This document shows positions 16,067 through 24,148 of a stretch of DNA of 35,183 nt, piece by piece. The stretch comes from Brevinematales bacterium (GTDB taxonomy: Bacteria > Spirochaetota > Brevinematia > Brevinematales > GWF1-51-8): positions 1 to 35,183 of the forward strand of contig JABLXV010000039.1 of assembly GCA_013177895.1 (NCBI GenBank), given 5' to 3'. Positions within the stretch are counted from its first letter, which is position 1; every line of letters starts with the position of its first letter. Position numbers and translations under genes: made by a program. Below the pieces are notes generated by a model that worked only from the letters and a program-made list of their open reading frames with translations, was not told where the DNA came from and searched no databases.

Positions 16067-17014
16067 ATGAGACCGATTTTGAAGCTGACCGCCGGAGCAA
16101 TTTTCCTGCTAATCTCCGCATCCTGCGCGGTTTTCAGTCCCGAGCGCGCGTTGATCTCCGCCGTACAGAAGGGGAGTATTTCCGAGGCGCAGAGGATGCT
16201 GAATAAGGGCGCGGATATCGACGCGGTTGTGGCGGGATTGGGCACACCGTTGACAGTGGCGTGCGCGAAGGGCGACGTGCTGTTCACGATCCAGCTCCTG
16301 AAATGGGGCGCGGATATTCACCGGACGGACGAGCACGGGCTCGCGCCGCTGTTCTGGGCGGTGTCGCAGGGGCATGCCGACGTCACGGAGTTCCTGCTCG
16401 ACGAGGGCGCGAAGCTGAGCGAGGCGTCCGGTAAGGGATTCGATTCGCTGATTACGGCGTGCCAGTACGGATACGAAAAAGTGGCGGAACTGCTGATAAA
16501 AGCGGGCGCCGATGTGAACAAGCCCGATAAGGACGGGGATACCCCGCTTCATTGGGCGTCCGCGTTCGGGAACTCCGATCTCGTAGCCCTGCTGCTGGAT
16601 TATAACGCCGATATGCACGCGACTAACCTGAACGGCGAGAACCCGTTCCAATGGGCGTATATCACCGGCAGTATGGATGTGGTAAAAATTTACCTGGCGA
16701 GGGGATTCGACCCGAACGACCCCGACAAGAAGGGCATGACCTACCTGCATAAGGCGGCGTGGGACGGTGATTACTCGATGGTCGACCTGCTCCTGCGTTC
16801 CGGCGCGAAGGTGAACGCCTCCGATACGCGCGGCGCGCTCCCGATACATTACGCGTGCAGGAACGGGAGTCTCGATATTATCAAGCTCCTGATCAGGTAC
16901 GGATCGAAAACTAATGAAAAAACGACCGATGAAAAGACGCCGTACATGATGGCGGAGGAATATCAGCATACGGCGGTAATGAATTACTTTAAAGAGAAAA
17001 ATATTACAAATTAA
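16067..17014 (+). CDS. Ankyrin-repeat lipoprotein
   Basis: A 315-residue lipoprotein (lipobox ISASC, cysteine near residue 20) composed almost entirely of about eight ankyrin repeats, with unit patterns such as DGDTPLHWASAFGNSDLVALLL. Ankyrin repeats mediate protein-protein contacts. Membrane anchoring on the periplasmic side suggests a scaffold or inhibitor-like role; the partner is unknown. AAGGA precedes the ATG, and the nine-base gap to the debranching-enzyme gene suggests one transcript. Confidence 0.85.
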   Translation: MRPILKLTAGAIFLLISASCAVFSPERALISAVQKGSISEAQRMLNKGADIDAVVAGLGTPLTVACAKGDVLFTIQLLKWGADIHRTDEHGLAPLFWAVSQGHADVTEFLLDEGAKLSEASGKGFDSLITACQYGYEKVAELLIKAGADVNKPDKDGDTPLHWASAFGNSDLVALLLDYNADMHATNLNGENPFQWAYITGSMDVVKIYLARGFDPNDPDKKGMTYLHKAAWDGDYSMVDLLLRSGAKVNASDTRGALPIHYACRNGSLDIIKLLIRYGSKTNEKTTDEKTPYMMAEEYQHTAVMNYFKEKNITN

Positions 17015-17027
17015 AAATGAATAACTG

Positions 17028-17056
17028 TTGAAAGACGGTCAATATTATGGTATGAT
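17028..17056 (+). promoter_or_regulatory. Promoter of second ankyrin gene
   Basis: TTGAAA and TATGAT are separated by 17 bases, about 28 bases before the start codon. Confidence 0.68.
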
Positions 17057-17083
17057 ATATCGAAAGTTAACGAGGAGGATAGT

Positions 17084-17830
17084 ATGAAGAAGACGATTTT
17101 TAGTGCGGTGTGTATTTTTGCTCTTTTAGCGATGGCTCCGAGTGTTTACGCGGATACGGATGAAGATTTAGTAACCGCGGCGCAGGACGGCGATGCCGCT
17201 CAAGTGAAAGCTTTGCTGAAACAAGGGGCGGATGTAAACTATAAGAACGATTCCGACGATGCGGCGATGCATTGGGCCGCATTTAATGGCGACCTGAAGA
17301 TTATGAAGATGCTTGTCGATGCCGGCGCGGATATCGAGATCCTGAACGGCAGCGGCGATACCCCGTTATGTCTGGGCGCGATGAAGGGATATGCCGATAT
17401 CGTGGAATACCTGATCGATAAGGGCGCGGATTTGGATGTGGTCAACGATAAGACCGACGGCCCCCTGCATTGGGCTTGTTTCAAGGGTTTTGACGACGTC
17501 GCCCAGCTTCTGATAGACGGGGGATGCGACCTCGAAGTCAGGAACGCCAGCAAGGATACAGCGTTATTCCTTGCCGCTAAGGGCGGTTTTCTGGATATCA
17601 CCCAGATGCTGGTTGATGCGGGCGCTAACCTGAACGCGCAGAATAAGTTCGGCGACACCGGACTGCATTGGGCTGCATATAACGAGGATGTCGAGATGGT
17701 TGAACTCCTTGTGGATGCGGGCGCTAAGGTTAATTTGAAGAACGAATCCGGCAGTACCCCGATGGATACCGCTAAGAAGAATAAGAATAAAAAGATCCAG
17801 AGTATCCTGAAATCCGCCGGCGGAAAATAA
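17084..17830 (+). CDS. Exported ankyrin-repeat protein
   Basis: A 248-residue protein with a cleavable signal peptide (ends SVYA, residue about 23; no lipobox) and about seven ankyrin repeats, with repeated units such as KTDGPLHWACFKGFDDVAQLL. Unlike its upstream neighbour it is probably soluble in the periplasm or secreted. The two differ in sequence between repeats but may come from a local duplication. GAGGAGG precedes the ATG. It has its own promoter and terminator. Confidence 0.87.
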   Translation: MKKTIFSAVCIFALLAMAPSVYADTDEDLVTAAQDGDAAQVKALLKQGADVNYKNDSDDAAMHWAAFNGDLKIMKMLVDAGADIEILNGSGDTPLCLGAMKGYADIVEYLIDKGADLDVVNDKTDGPLHWACFKGFDDVAQLLIDGGCDLEVRNASKDTALFLAAKGGFLDITQMLVDAGANLNAQNKFGDTGLHWAAYNEDVEMVELLVDAGAKVNLKNESGSTPMDTAKKNKNKKIQSILKSAGGK

Positions 17831-18216: not shown

Positions 18217-19329
18217 ATGAAAAATATCTGGATGGCGCTGCTCGGCGCGTTATTGATTTCTTCATGCGGCGGCGGAAGCGGCGGGGGAAGTGTCGCGAAA
18301 CCTGCCGATTCAAAAGCAGCCCAACTGGGGTTGGGATTGAAATGGTTCCCGAATATCCTGAAGGGCAGGATACCGTTCGACCAGTATGTGATAGACACGG
18401 TGAAGATGCCGAAACTGAACGCCGGAAAACTCGTTTTCCTGTTCGATCAGGCGGTATTTCTCGACGGGTCGTCGAAGCCTGTTTCCAATATAGACTTCAC
18501 GTTCGCGGCATACGGGAGTTCGAACCTGCTCGGCTCGATGCTCAATCTTTCGATTACCGACGGCGGTAAATACTCCATCCTCGAATCCTACGCGTTGATC
18601 TATCTGAATCCTAAGGACGCCAAGGGCGGGGATGTCACACTAAAAAACGGGTCATATATGACTATCAACGTACCCGTGCCGTATGGCTTGTCCGATGCGG
18701 TAATCAAGTCGCTCAAGGTATATAGTTTCGATATGAACTCGGCCAAATGGGTCGCGGAGTCGTTACCGGAAATCAAGGACGTAGCCGGTACGAAGATGTT
18801 CAGCTTCCGGGTCACCCATCTGTCCTATTGGATGATTGCCGCCCCGATCGATAAGTTCGCCTGTATGAAGGGGCAGGTCAAGTGCACGGGGATTCCCGCC
18901 GACGCGGATATTCTGGTGATCGCATGCGGCGAGAACTATACCGGGTTGACCCGCACTTATATCAAAAATAACGGCGCTTACGAGCTCGACGCGAAAATGA
19001 ACTCATCGGTGACTATCTACGCGTTCGCCGCCGACGAGTATCAGAGCGCCGGTTTCCTTGTGGGGAATACGGTGATCGACATGCCGGGTTCGTCGAAAAT
19101 CCCTGACGGGAGCGGGAACACCAAGCAGAAGGTGATGAATATTGTGATGCAGAAGGACGGCTACAGCGCGATCAAGAACGGCGACGACCTGTACCAGATT
19201 AAATCGGCGGCGCAATACAACCAGCAGAATACGGTCGACCCGAATAAGGACGCTCAGATGAATAAGGAATTCGACGAGATGAACAAGCTGCTGGATAAGC
19301 CGAAGAAGGACAACAGCACCAATAAATAA
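18217..19329 (+). CDS. Hypothetical lipoprotein with FAM171/carboxypeptidase-like region
   Basis: A 370-residue lipoprotein (lipobox LISSC, cysteine near residue 17) followed by a Gly/Ser linker. The central region is beta-rich; VYSFDMNSAKWVAES and FRVTHLSYWMIAAP near residues 165-210 recall the HLSYW segment of FAM171-like/carboxypeptidase-regulatory-like exported proteins. A further beta domain (about 215-310) and a polar, Lys/Asn/Asp-rich tail follow. The role is unknown; an outer-membrane surface protein is plausible. AAGGAGG precedes the ATG. It is monocistronic. Confidence 0.7.
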   Translation: MKNIWMALLGALLISSCGGGSGGGSVAKPADSKAAQLGLGLKWFPNILKGRIPFDQYVIDTVKMPKLNAGKLVFLFDQAVFLDGSSKPVSNIDFTFAAYGSSNLLGSMLNLSITDGGKYSILESYALIYLNPKDAKGGDVTLKNGSYMTINVPVPYGLSDAVIKSLKVYSFDMNSAKWVAESLPEIKDVAGTKMFSFRVTHLSYWMIAAPIDKFACMKGQVKCTGIPADADILVIACGENYTGLTRTYIKNNGAYELDAKMNSSVTIYAFAADEYQSAGFLVGNTVIDMPGSSKIPDGSGNTKQKVMNIVMQKDGYSAIKNGDDLYQIKSAAQYNQQNTVDPNKDAQMNKEFDEMNKLLDKPKKDNSTNK

Positions 19330-19395: not shown

Positions 19396-20181
19396 GTGGA
19401 AGAAGGTACGCTGTTCAATGGATGGGGGAATACGGTCAACGCGACCATTATCTCGTCCGGCGACACTGAAATCGGCTCGATTCGCGATAAATTCGAAGCC
19501 CTCAAGGATTTCGAGTTCATCGGGCTGAACGAGATTCCCGATAATTACGGGAAACGGATTCTCGTCGACTTCACGTTCGATATATTCAATAAAGACCTGC
19601 GCCCGGAATACCTCTTCCGGGTGTTCGCCGACCTGCAGAAGCATCTCGACGCGCTCCGTTTCACGGGAACCCCGTTCAATTTTATTATGAATTACCCGTT
19701 CGGTACCAACCAGAAGAATTACCTCTATTTTCAGCGCATTATCGACCGGTATCTCGAACTCCTCGGGGAGTTCTATACGGTCAAGCAGATACTCATCCCG
19801 AATATCATCTCGCGTTTCTCGTTCACGAAGATACAAAGCCCCGTCATCCATATTATCAACGCCGTCCGGCTCGGGAAAAGCCTGAAGGTGAATTTGACCG
19901 ATAATTCGCGGGTGACCCTGATCTACGGGATCGACCTCGTGACCTCGTTATTGACCGCGATGGACCATATCGGGGGGCATCATGTGATTATCGAGGGGAT
20001 CGACCTGTGCCTGAAGGATATCGACGAGATCGCGCGGAGGACGGCGGGGGAAGCCCCCATCCAGTTCGATAAGGAACGTTTCATCAAGTATAACTATCCC
20101 GGTTCTCAGGGGGTGACAGTGAATAATATCAACTACGAATTCGAGAATATTATGATCGATTTGGTGAATAATCTGTTCTGA
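19396..20181 (+). CDS. SDR-like protein lacking a clear nucleotide loop
   Basis: A 261-residue cytoplasmic protein with a GTG start (GGGGG upstream; an in-frame TAG at 19378 excludes a longer form). The layout resembles an extended short-chain dehydrogenase/epimerase. There is a helix ending PEYLFRVFADLQKHLDAL, then MNYPFGTNQKNYLYFQRIID where the YxxxK region would be. The C-terminal half has the pattern HIINAVRLGKSLKVNL, TLIYGIDLVTSLLTAM, HHVIIEGIDLCLKDIDEIA. No TGxxGxxG dinucleotide loop is seen near the N-terminus, so it may not bind NAD(P). The assignment rests on overall pattern and is uncertain. It converges with the minus-strand RNA candidate. Confidence 0.55.
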   Translation: MEEGTLFNGWGNTVNATIISSGDTEIGSIRDKFEALKDFEFIGLNEIPDNYGKRILVDFTFDIFNKDLRPEYLFRVFADLQKHLDALRFTGTPFNFIMNYPFGTNQKNYLYFQRIIDRYLELLGEFYTVKQILIPNIISRFSFTKIQSPVIHIINAVRLGKSLKVNLTDNSRVTLIYGIDLVTSLLTAMDHIGGHHVIIEGIDLCLKDIDEIARRTAGEAPIQFDKERFIKYNYPGSQGVTVNNINYEFENIMIDLVNNLF

Positions 20182-20197: not shown

Positions 20198-20228
20198 AAA
20201 AAAAAGCGAGGACTTTCGTCCTCGCCCC
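20198..20228 (-). terminator. Minus-strand terminator before gap
   Basis: GCGAGGAC / GTCCTCGC with a four-base loop; the T8 run lies on the minus-strand 3' side, so it serves leftward transcription. Confidence 0.82.
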
Positions 20229-20334
20229 ACTCACCAGAGTGAGTTTGCAGAATTGGGAGGGGAATCTGCTTTCTCATCTCTTTCCGGTCATTTCCGAATG
20301 AAAGAGTCTATAGAAATGACCGCGAACATGTACA
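20198..20334 (-). ncRNA. Candidate structured small RNA
   Basis: Read on the minus strand, about 130 bases fold into consecutive stems. A 9-bp stem GGTCATTTC/GAAATGACC (20313-20321 with 20286-20294) has a loop whose CTCTTTC can pair with GAAAGAG just past the stem (20300-20306 with 20278-20284), giving an H-type pseudoknot. GCAGA/TCTGC (20247-20269) and ACTCAC/GTGAGT (20229-20244) follow. The end is the intrinsic terminator GCGAGGAC-TTTC-GTCCTCGC followed by eight U. A promoter-like sequence lies just upstream. No plus- or minus-strand gene otherwise explains a minus-oriented terminator here. The RNA family is not recognised. Confidence 0.55.
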
Positions 20335-20360
20335 TTATCGGCAAAGATTCCGCCAATTTA
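20335..20360 (-). promoter_or_regulatory. Sigma-28-like promoter for small RNA candidate
   Basis: On the minus strand TAAA (20360-20357), 14 bases, then a perfect GCCGATAA (20342-20335). This matches the flagellar sigma factor consensus TAAA-N14/15-GCCGATAA. The same DNA also offers TTTAAA-17-GATAAT, a weaker housekeeping promoter. Confidence 0.5.
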
Positions 20361-20361
20361 A

Positions 20362-21585
<1,224 letters not shown>

Positions 21586-21597
21586 TTAATTGATATC

Positions 21598-21628
21598 GGG
21601 CGGGGATTTATCCCCCGCCCTCGTTTTT
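21598..21628 (+). terminator. Terminator or attenuator between gap and pgk
   Basis: GGGCGGGG pairs with CCCCGCCC around a short loop, followed by TCGTTTTTATTC. Readthrough may set the ratio of gap to downstream genes, since no clear promoter separates it from pgk. Confidence 0.82.
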
Positions 21629-21654
21629 ATTCATTTATAGAGAAGGAGACGGAA

Positions 21655-22923
21655 ATGGCTATTACTAAAAAAACAGTCAAAGACATTAAATTCGACGGCA
21701 AGCGCGTGCTGATGCGCGTGGATTTCAACGTACCCCTCAAGGACGGCGTGATACAGGACGATACCCGTATCGTCGCGGCGCTCCCCACTATCAAGTATGT
21801 GCTCGAGCACGGCGCGAAGACGCTTGTGCTGATGTCGCATCTCGGCGATCCCGCGAAGGATACGGCGAAAGCGAAGGAGAAGGCCGACAAAGAAGGGAAA
21901 GCGTTCGACGAAAAGAAATATATCGACGGGAAACATAAAATGGCGCCTGTCGCGGCGCATCTCGCGAAGCTCCTCGGTAAAGAGGTCAGGCTCGCCCCCG
22001 CATGCTTCGGGGCGGATACCGAAAAGATGGTTTCCGCGATGAAGGACGGCGAAGTGCTCATGCTCGAAAATACCCGTTTTCATAAAGAGGAGACGTCGAA
22101 AGACGCCGCCGCCCGCGAATCGATGGCAAAGGAGCTTGCCAAGTACGGCGATATCTATGTCAACGACGCGTTCGGGACAGCGCACCGCGCGCACGCCTCC
22201 ACCGAGACTGTCGCGCATTATCTTCCCGCTGTGGCCGGCCTCCTGATGGAAAAAGAGCTCGATTATCTCGAGGACAAAGTAGTAAAAAATCCCGCGAAAC
22301 CGTTCGTCGCCATTATCGGCGGCGCGAAGGTATCGTCGAAAATAACCGTCATAGAGAGCCTGCTCGCCAAGGTCGATAAACTGATTATCGGCGGCGGTAT
22401 GGCATACACGTTCTATAAGGCGATGGGTTACGGTATCGGCGATTCGCTTTGCGAAGACGACCAGATCGACACCGCGAAAAAGGTGATGTCGGCCGCGAAA
22501 GCGAAGGGTGTGGAGCTGATCCTGCCCCTCGATAATATTATCGCCGATAAGTACGATCCCAACGCGAATACGCAGATTGTCGACTCGGACAAAATCCCCG
22601 ACGGCTGGCAGGGTCTCGACGTCGGGCCGAAAACGGTCGAGGTCTATAAAAAGACTCTTGCCGGGGCGAAGACGGTATTCTGGAACGGCCCCGTGGGCGT
22701 GTTCGAATTCGAGAAGTTCGCTAACGGAACCGTGTCGATCGCGAATACCCTCGCGGGGTTGAAGGGCGCGATCACTGTTATCGGCGGGGGAGACTCCGTA
22801 TCGGCGGTGAATAAGGCCGGGGTTGCGGACAAGATGTCGCATATTTCCACCGGCGGCGGCGCATCGCTCGAACTGGTCGAGGGGAAAGTATTACCGGGCG
22901 TCGCGGCGCTCAACGATAAATAG
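21655..22923 (+). CDS. pgk: Phosphoglycerate kinase
   Basis: A 422-residue enzyme that transfers phosphate from 1,3-bisphosphoglycerate to ADP. Signatures include [11 protein letters not shown] (22-32), [40 protein letters not shown] and the nucleotide-loop GGGDSV; the C-terminal [14 protein letters not shown] is intact. An insertion rich in Lys/Ala/Asp near residues 67-98 lengthens the N-terminal domain relative to E. coli. AAGGAG precedes the ATG. It lies 69 bases after gap, behind an attenuator-like hairpin. Confidence 0.97.
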
Positions 22924-22931
22924 GCCGGACG

Positions 22932-23228
22932 ATGGTCGAACATATTGTCATGTGGCGGATGAAGGACGAGAACAAGGCGGAGAATACCGCCGAGATGCTC
23001 TCGAAGCTCCGTTCGCTGAAGGATAAAGTCTGGGTCATCCGCGCGCTTCGGGCGGGGACGGACTTCAACGGGGGCGATAACGCCTACGACGTCGGGCTAT
23101 CGGTGACGCTGAACAGCAGGGCGGATCTGGAGATTTACCGGAAGCACCCGGAGCACCAGAAGGTCGGCGAATTCGTACGTTCGGTGACCACGGAACGCGC
23201 GGTCGTCGATTTCGAGTACCAGGGATAG
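22932..23228 (+). CDS. Dabb-family (stress-response A/B barrel) protein
   Basis: A 98-residue protein with the ferredoxin-like Dabb pattern: start [11 protein letters not shown], central [27 protein letters not shown] and terminal [10 protein letters not shown]. These small dimeric barrels occur in many bacteria and mostly lack a proven function. It starts 8 bases after the pgk stop with a weak ribosome site (CCGGACG), implying coupling to pgk. Its place inside a glycolytic operon is not explained by known roles. Confidence 0.85.
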
Positions 23229-23236
23229 ATGTGTCT

Positions 23237-23345
23237 GTCACTGCGAGCGTATACCAACTTTAAAGTGACGTGAATAAATCTAGAAGCGAAGCAGTCTTTT
23301 TCAAATTGGTATTGATTGCTTCTACCGCGCTAAAAAAACGCGTGG
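23237..23345. repeat. REP-like element between Dabb gene and tpiA
   Basis: Contains GTCACTGCGAGCG, then AAGCGAAGCAGTCT and GATTGCTTCTACCGCG, as in the repeats at 38-109 and 17931. Arms ATACCAA...TTT and AAA...TTGGTAT form an imperfect inverted repeat around a foreign-looking 34-base insert. It separates tpiA from the rest of the operon. Confidence 0.65.
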
Positions 23346-23392
23346 TATCACAATTATATGAAATTTCGGATGTATTGCGGAAGGAGGATAAA

Positions 23393-24148
23393 ATGGCTAA
23401 GAAACCTTTAATGTCGGGTAACTGGAAGATGTATATGAATACAGCAAGCGGCCTCGACCTGGTCAAGTCGCTGAAAGCGAACTGCGGGGATGTCAAAGAC
23501 CGCGACATTCTCATATTCGTACCGTTTACGCTTCTCGCCCCTATTGCGAAAGAATTGGATGGGACAAACATTTGGGTCGGCGCGCAGAATATGTACTTCG
23601 AGAAGGAAGGCGCGTTCACCGGGGAAATCTCGCCGTTACAGATACTGGATACCGGAGCGAAATGGGTGCTTCTCGGGCATTCCGAACGCCGCCATGTGTT
23701 CGGCGAAACCAACGACCTGATCAATAAAAAGCTCAAATCGGCGCTTGCGCACGGGCTGAAACCTGTTCTCTGCGTCGGAGAGCTGCTCGAGGAACGCGAA
23801 GGCGGAAAGATCGAGGAAGTGCTGAAGACCCAGACGAAGGGCGGCTTCAAGGATTTATCGAAGGAAGAAGCGGCGAATGTGGTGATCGCGTACGAGCCCG
23901 TATGGGCGATCGGCACCGGTAAGACGGCGTCGCCCGAGGACGCGGACGAGGCGCACCGGATTATCCGCGAGATACTGGCGTCGATCTACGATAAGGAGAC
24001 CGCGGACAATATGCGTATCCTTTACGGCGGGTCGGTGAAGCCCGATAATGTGGACGGGCTGATGGCAAAGCCGAATATAGACGGGTCTCTGGTCGGGGGC
24101 GCGAGCCTGAAAGCCGACGGGTTTACCCGGATTGTAAAGTTTCAATAA
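23393..24148 (+). CDS. tpiA: Triose-phosphate isomerase
   Basis: A 251-residue TIM-barrel enzyme interconverting dihydroxyacetone phosphate and glyceraldehyde-3-phosphate. N10 and K12 in GNWKM, H96 in LLGHSERR, E168 in YEPVWAIGTGK and the phosphate-binding YGGSVKPDN are all present. ATG 23393 has AAGGAGG upstream; a longer in-frame extension runs into the REP-like element and is rejected. Last of the glycolytic set. Confidence 0.97.
   Translation: MAKKPLMSGNWKMYMNTASGLDLVKSLKANCGDVKDRDILIFVPFTLLAPIAKELDGTNIWVGAQNMYFEKEGAFTGEISPLQILDTGAKWVLLGHSERRHVFGETNDLINKKLKSALAHGLKPVLCVGELLEEREGGKIEEVLKTQTKGGFKDLSKEEAANVVIAYEPVWAIGTGKTASPEDADEAHRIIREILASIYDKETADNMRILYGGSVKPDNVDGLMAKPNIDGSLVGGASLKADGFTRIVKFQ

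Follow-up and report, generated by a model that had tools for sequence, protein, structure and literature searches.

The window, i.e., the whole stretch of 35,183 nucleotides analysed here, belongs to a Brevinematales spirochaete (G000), and was compared with its congeners G001, G002 and G003 and with G005, a genome of another family. Two adjacent ankyrin-repeat proteins (Pfam) are encoded at 16067-17830, followed by the frames 18217-19329 and 19396-20181, for which no Pfam or NCBIfam match was obtained, and by a row of glycolysis genes at 20521-24148, consisting of gap (GAPDH-I by NCBIfam) and two frames with congener proteins resembling phosphoglycerate kinase and triosephosphate isomerase. 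Between the frame 19396-20181 and gap lies a minus-strand small RNA gene of about 130 nt (20198..20328), its start placed from the promoter and its end from the T run; the same arrangement is found in G001, and the gene adjoins gap throughout the genus. According to the comparative evidence presented below, this gene is real and constitutes a conserved, new family of predicted antisense RNAs.

The minus-strand intrinsic terminator (20225-20198), GCGAGGAC-GAAA-GTCCTCGC followed by eight T, that had first drawn attention to this gap is present as claimed in the earlier note, and so are the two further hairpins described there. The predicted fold of the RNA reached -49.3 kcal/mol, compared with -33.8 +/- 3.7 kcal/mol for shuffled sequences (z -4.24; 0 of 200 shuffles reached the value). 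In agreement with its description as an RNA of unrecognised class, no Rfam 15 family matched it at the gathering threshold, and at a permissive threshold nothing credible appeared, the best match being ylbH on the other strand (23.3 vs 50 bits).

The 5' part of the RNA had been interpreted as an H-type pseudoknot, and the complementary 9-mers GGTCATTTC/GAAATGACC and 7-mers CTCTTTC/GAAAGAG proposed as its stems are both there. The 9-bp stem (20321-20313 with 20294-20286) forms a plausible minus-strand hairpin at 20286..20321, whose structure is present in all four congeners, the sequence being unrelated in G001 and G003, and which is missing in G005; in G002, the beginning of the RNA gene is broken by a stretch of N (L009:1458-1491, contig C120), so that its 5' hairpin is not readable with certainty. 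The second stem (20306-20300 with 20284-20278, spanning 20278..20306) is sterically unlikely to coexist with the first, since only one base (G, 20285) would be available to bridge the 9-bp stem. For three of the seven pairs of this second stem, just 54.5% of cells are paired; by eye, the stem is absent in G001 and G003, and G002 displays a shifted version of four pairs with one compensatory change. The pseudoknot, being neither kept nor geometrically likely, is unsupported. A structured pseudoknot RNA with a ligand-binding or catalytic role would suit the strong fold and the complementary 7-mers of the window; however, the pseudoknot region is the least conserved part of the RNA and is missing in G005, its second stem is not kept, and Rfam holds no match, all of which makes such a role very unlikely.

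Conservation is concentrated elsewhere in the molecule. A BLAST search with the 171-base region found it in all three congeners examined (G001, G002 and G003), with 80-93% identity, and in pieces in G005. In the alignment, a 24-nt core, AGATTCCCCTCCCAATTCTGCAAA (20244..20267, minus strand), is invariant in all five RNA genes, which belong to two families, and the exact core was absent elsewhere in a pattern search of 18 genomes of the class; exact 19-base matches in two Bacteroidota genomes were treated as chance, as about two are expected in a collection of that size. The core is predicted to fold into a hairpin with a GCAGA/TCTGC stem (20247..20269) that displays the loop TTCCCCTCCCAAT (20264-20252); this stem is found across the genus, and the C residues of the loop, CCCCUCCC, are unpaired with a probability of 1.0. 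In G005 this 3' arm is retained with another 5' partner, TTGCGGAATT, and the C-rich stretch is again mostly exposed; the loop is exposed in all five predicted folds. A fixed target-pairing arm with a free partner arm is as expected if the predicted targets hold the 3' arm. The following hairpin, ACTCAC-TCTG-GTGAGT (20229..20244), is invariant in the genus, with a different hairpin occupying its position in G005, and the terminator shows one compensatory change (A-U to U-A) in G003.

The RNA had also been linked to the gap leader, and a cis-acting antisense or leader element of gap would account for the two genes adjoining in this genus. Two observations contradict such a role, which we regard as extremely improbable. 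The likely gap promoter, TTGACA-N17-TAAAAT, lies on the plus strand at 20440..20468, with the RNA upstream of it and hence outside the gap mRNA; moreover, the RNA gene of G005 sits elsewhere, between metF-like and yqeK-like genes (names read from the protein starts). The locus therefore shifts between genomes while the core remains unchanged, and the RNA is not a gap regulator in cis. An intergenic gene with its own predicted promoter and intrinsic terminator, not tied to one neighbouring gene and carrying a conserved, exposed region with predicted complementarity to mRNAs encoded elsewhere, corresponds to a putative trans-encoded base-pairing small RNA.

As had been described, the -10 element GCCGATAA is found at 20342-20335, with a putative -35 element, TAAA (20357..20360), 14 bases upstream, both on the minus strand, and its reading as a flagellar sigma-28-type promoter holds as a sequence match. 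The nine letters GCCGATAAT are identical across the five RNA loci, the spacer not being kept, and TAAA-N14-16-GCCGATAA precedes the RNA in G000, G001, G003 and G005. The same promoter pattern stands before the FlgM gene of G001 (Pfam PF04316), and some flagellin genes are preceded by TAAAG-N15-GTCGATAA-like sites (GTCGATAA in G003, GTCGATAT in G000 and CCCGATAA in G004). Taken by itself, the pattern TAAA-N13-16-GCCGATAA is weak evidence, as most of its matches fall within coding sequences or ahead of unrelated genes, and it is the flgM and flagellin upstream regions that carry the weight of the sigma-28 case. In Treponema denticola, the mapped flaB2 promoter contains CCGATAA (PMC9481697). Alternatively, the housekeeping sigma factor could make the same antisense RNA with the same targets, GATAAT being its -10 box, and the RNA would then belong to a growth or stress response rather than to flagellar feedback. 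TTTAAA-N17-GATAAT agrees with a sigma-70 promoter at 9 of 12 positions, and two of the predicted targets described below, nrdD and dnaA, are non-flagellar genes; nevertheless, a sigma-70 promoter does not account for all nine letters of GCCGATAAT being kept in five genomes when the spacer is not, nor for the same element before flgM and its close forms before flagellins, and we consider this alternative unlikely. From its promoter sequence, the RNA is likely to be under sigma-28 control.

Most of the additional short BLAST matches in G003 and G005 lay immediately upstream of start codons, in the orientation complementary to the RNA. The core is complementary to the Shine-Dalgarno regions of fliP in all five genomes, to the flhB leader genus-wide, to nrdD in some genomes and to dnaA in G005. 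This C-rich antisense loop, complementary to the ribosome-binding sites of several mRNAs, is by these matches the functional core of the RNA, and was missed in the earlier note. A whole-genome search for the complement of the core, TTTGCAGAATTGGGAGGGGAAT, with up to 3 mismatches, returned in the class, beyond the RNA genes themselves, only the fliP, nrdD and dnaA starts of G005 and, in G003, the start of nrdD and the fliR-flhB junction, with one more match inside a coding region of a distant genome; the reversed pattern, used as control, had no matches within the class and two in other parts of the phylum. The identities of the FliP, NrdD and DnaA proteins were assigned with NCBIfam, and so were the fliP, fliQ, fliR-like, flhB and flhF-like genes of G000.

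The common predicted target is fliP. Its site in G005 is TTTGCAGAATCGGGAGGGGAATATG, and the fliP leaders of all four congeners carry TTTTGCAGA and GGGAGGGG separated by a spacer of 7-8 bases, before a TTG or GTG start, with pairing energies of -31 to -33 kcal/mol; the leaders of G005 and of G008 display a compact form (-37 to -38 kcal/mol). TGCAGA and the Shine-Dalgarno site are kept in the fliP leaders of all RNA-bearing genomes and of G008, and a gapped pattern, TTGCAGA-N2-8-GGGAGG, had no matches in G000, G001, G002 and G003 other than the RNA genes, the fliP leaders and, in G003, the flhB leader. The flhB leaders of G000, G001 and G002 contain a different strong match, which uses the 5' side of the core (-42.3 kcal/mol for both G000 and G001) and is found about 50 bases upstream of the flhB start. 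The ribosome-binding sites of flagellar mRNAs are thus predicted partners of the RNA.

Several further features were observed in and around these leaders. A hairpin of the flhB leader, CTCACCTATTTTTGAGGTGAG, can hide the flhB Shine-Dalgarno site and adjoins the RNA-binding site (L179:11763-11840, G000 contig C79); the same hairpin is found in L074 and L082, and an alternative outer hairpin, GAGGGGTA/TACCTCTC, would form in competition with it, so that binding of the RNA beside these competing hairpins could switch the leader. In family f2, in which the RNA was not found, the fliP leader holds GGGAGGGAGG and lacks TTTGCAGA, which is replaced by a GTAGTAGTA/TACTACTAC hairpin located about 60 bases upstream of fliP and immediately preceding the Shine-Dalgarno site (L120, L121 and L122; G004, G010 and G007), perhaps another kind of fliP control. 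In G008 (L115), the target site persists in altered form in the fliP leader, TATGCAGAATCTGGAGGGGAAATG. A modified core pattern did not find an RNA gene in this genome (86% complete), its two matches being the fliP leader itself and a site without a promoter or terminator of this type; a counterpart RNA in G008 would carry a core matching TATGCAGAATCTGGAGGGG. Additionally, a start-codon site of G000, GATGCAGAAGGGCAGGGAGGGGGAATGAGATGGCAAG (L291:9150-9210, contig C48), located before a 272-aa frame, pairs with the RNA at -31.4 kcal/mol.

Outside the flagellar genes, the sites of G005 are CGTGCAGAATGGGGAGGGGAATCTATG for nrdD and GTTGCAGAATTGGGAGGGGTGTTTTTATG for dnaA. The predicted nrdD pairing of G003 and G005 is strong, that of G000 and G001 weaker (about -27.6 kcal/mol), and pairing with dnaA was seen in G005 only. 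In the genus of the window, only the anti-Shine-Dalgarno part matches dnaA (-22 to -24 kcal/mol), and dnaA was not counted there as a target. The link to replication genes is new and predicted.

Pairing energies were placed against background in scans covering 1.6 Mb of G000 and 0.34 Mb of G005. Of the 282 gene starts sampled in G005, the top three were fliP (-43.8 kcal/mol), nrdD (-42.9 kcal/mol) and dnaA (-37.8 kcal/mol), the next one reaching -26.7 kcal/mol; this sample takes in the contigs of the three genes on purpose, and the TTTGCAGAATTGGGAGGGGAAT search covers the whole genome. None of 150 shuffled controls reached any of the three values, also when CCCCTCCC was kept. Among 339 starts of G000, fliP ranks first (-32.9 kcal/mol), a value reached by 3-7 of 150 controls, so that in this genome the weight for fliP rests on conservation; the flhB site (-42.3 kcal/mol) is clear of the background in the 1.6 Mb. 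As the core never varies, no compensatory changes between core and targets are found. It could be argued that the leaders share their Shine-Dalgarno motif for another reason, such as strong ribosome binding or an RNA-binding protein, and that the RNA has another job, the complementarity being a by-product: a C-rich loop pairs with any strong Shine-Dalgarno site, and GGGAGGGG also precedes nrdD in f2 genomes that gave no core match. However, the match extends well past the Shine-Dalgarno part, controls keeping CCCCTCCC never reach the G005 values, TGCAGA in the fliP leaders tracks the RNA-bearing families, and GGGAGGGG is rare (2 of 339 and 4 of 282 sampled leaders), and we give this explanation a low probability.

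From the conservation of the gene, its invariant core and predicted exposure, and the complementarity and position on Shine-Dalgarno sites, we infer with good confidence a trans-acting antisense RNA, probably sigma-28 dependent, that would act as feedback by keeping ribosomes from binding export-gate mRNAs. With the flagellar sigma factor active, transcription from the GCCGATAA promoter would yield an RNA of about 130 nt ending at its own terminator, whose hairpin would display the loop UUCCCCUCCCAAU. In the presumed order of pairing, the loop would first contact the uncommon Shine-Dalgarno sequence GGGAGGGG of the target mRNA; the stem would then open, and its arm UUCUGCAAA would pair with UUUGCAGA, just upstream of GGGAGGGG. 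The duplex would hide the ribosome-binding site and reduce the translation of fliP, the first of the fliP-fliQ-fliR-flhB genes, and at the second site, in the flhB leader, the RNA would bind upstream of the Shine-Dalgarno sequence of flhB itself, probably lowering flhB too. As the core is complementary to the sites where ribosomes land, the sign of the effect is probably negative, the targets being turned down when the flagellar sigma factor is active. A late flagellar stage would thereby feed back to lower export-gate synthesis, and the target set would include nrdD (anaerobic ribonucleotide reductase) in some species and dnaA in one.

Comparable RNAs are known from other bacteria. CjNC1 and CjNC4 of thermophilic Campylobacter are sigma-28-dependent, are predicted to cover the ribosome sites of flagellar mRNAs, and gave partial repression in E. 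coli (PMC4626219). The present RNA resembles them as a short intergenic RNA with a sigma-28-type promoter, a feedback reading, a strongly conserved interaction region beside a more variable stem-loop, and predicted cover of flagellar ribosome-binding sites; the hosts belong to different phyla, the RNA described here has about 130 nt and a core displayed in a loop, and the likeness is one of function, by description. CJnc170 (FlmR) of Campylobacter jejuni, a FliA-dependent RNA whose overexpression cuts flagellar length and motility (PMC11187230), is likewise a flagellar small RNA, in a different host and with no relation shown by sequence or targets. Four sigma-28-controlled RNAs of E. coli, UhpU, MotR, FliX and FlgO, act on flagellar genes and tie flagella to other cell processes, in their case ribosomal proteins (PMC10578931); these four are UTR-derived and several pair inside coding regions, whereas the RNA reported here has a free-standing gene and predicted Shine-Dalgarno pairing. 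EcpR1 of Sinorhizobium meliloti pairs through an invariant hairpin loop with dnaA mRNA, close to the ribosome site, and reduces dnaA expression (PMC4414408), but it is stress-induced and not flagellar, with another loop sequence and gcrA as its other target. Our literature search found no small-RNA study of Brevinematales, no description of small-RNA control of fliP in spirochaetes, and none of one RNA joining flagellar, dnaA and reductase targets. By this comparison, the RNA is a new family of the CjNC1/CjNC4 kind in function.

The RNA is thus ordinary in kind, and what is unusual is how completely its predicted target set is legible from the sequence, offering a case in which feedback on the flagellar export gate can be tested directly. 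More tentatively, and with somewhat less than even probability in our estimation, one sigma-28 RNA may hold down the export gate (fliP and flhB), dNTP synthesis (nrdD) and the initiation of replication (dnaA), keeping motility and replication as separate states of a free-living spirochaete. In one lineage, that of G005, the predicted sites suggest that motility is coupled post-transcriptionally to dNTP supply and DNA replication, which would possibly be important if the link to dnaA and nrdD is true.
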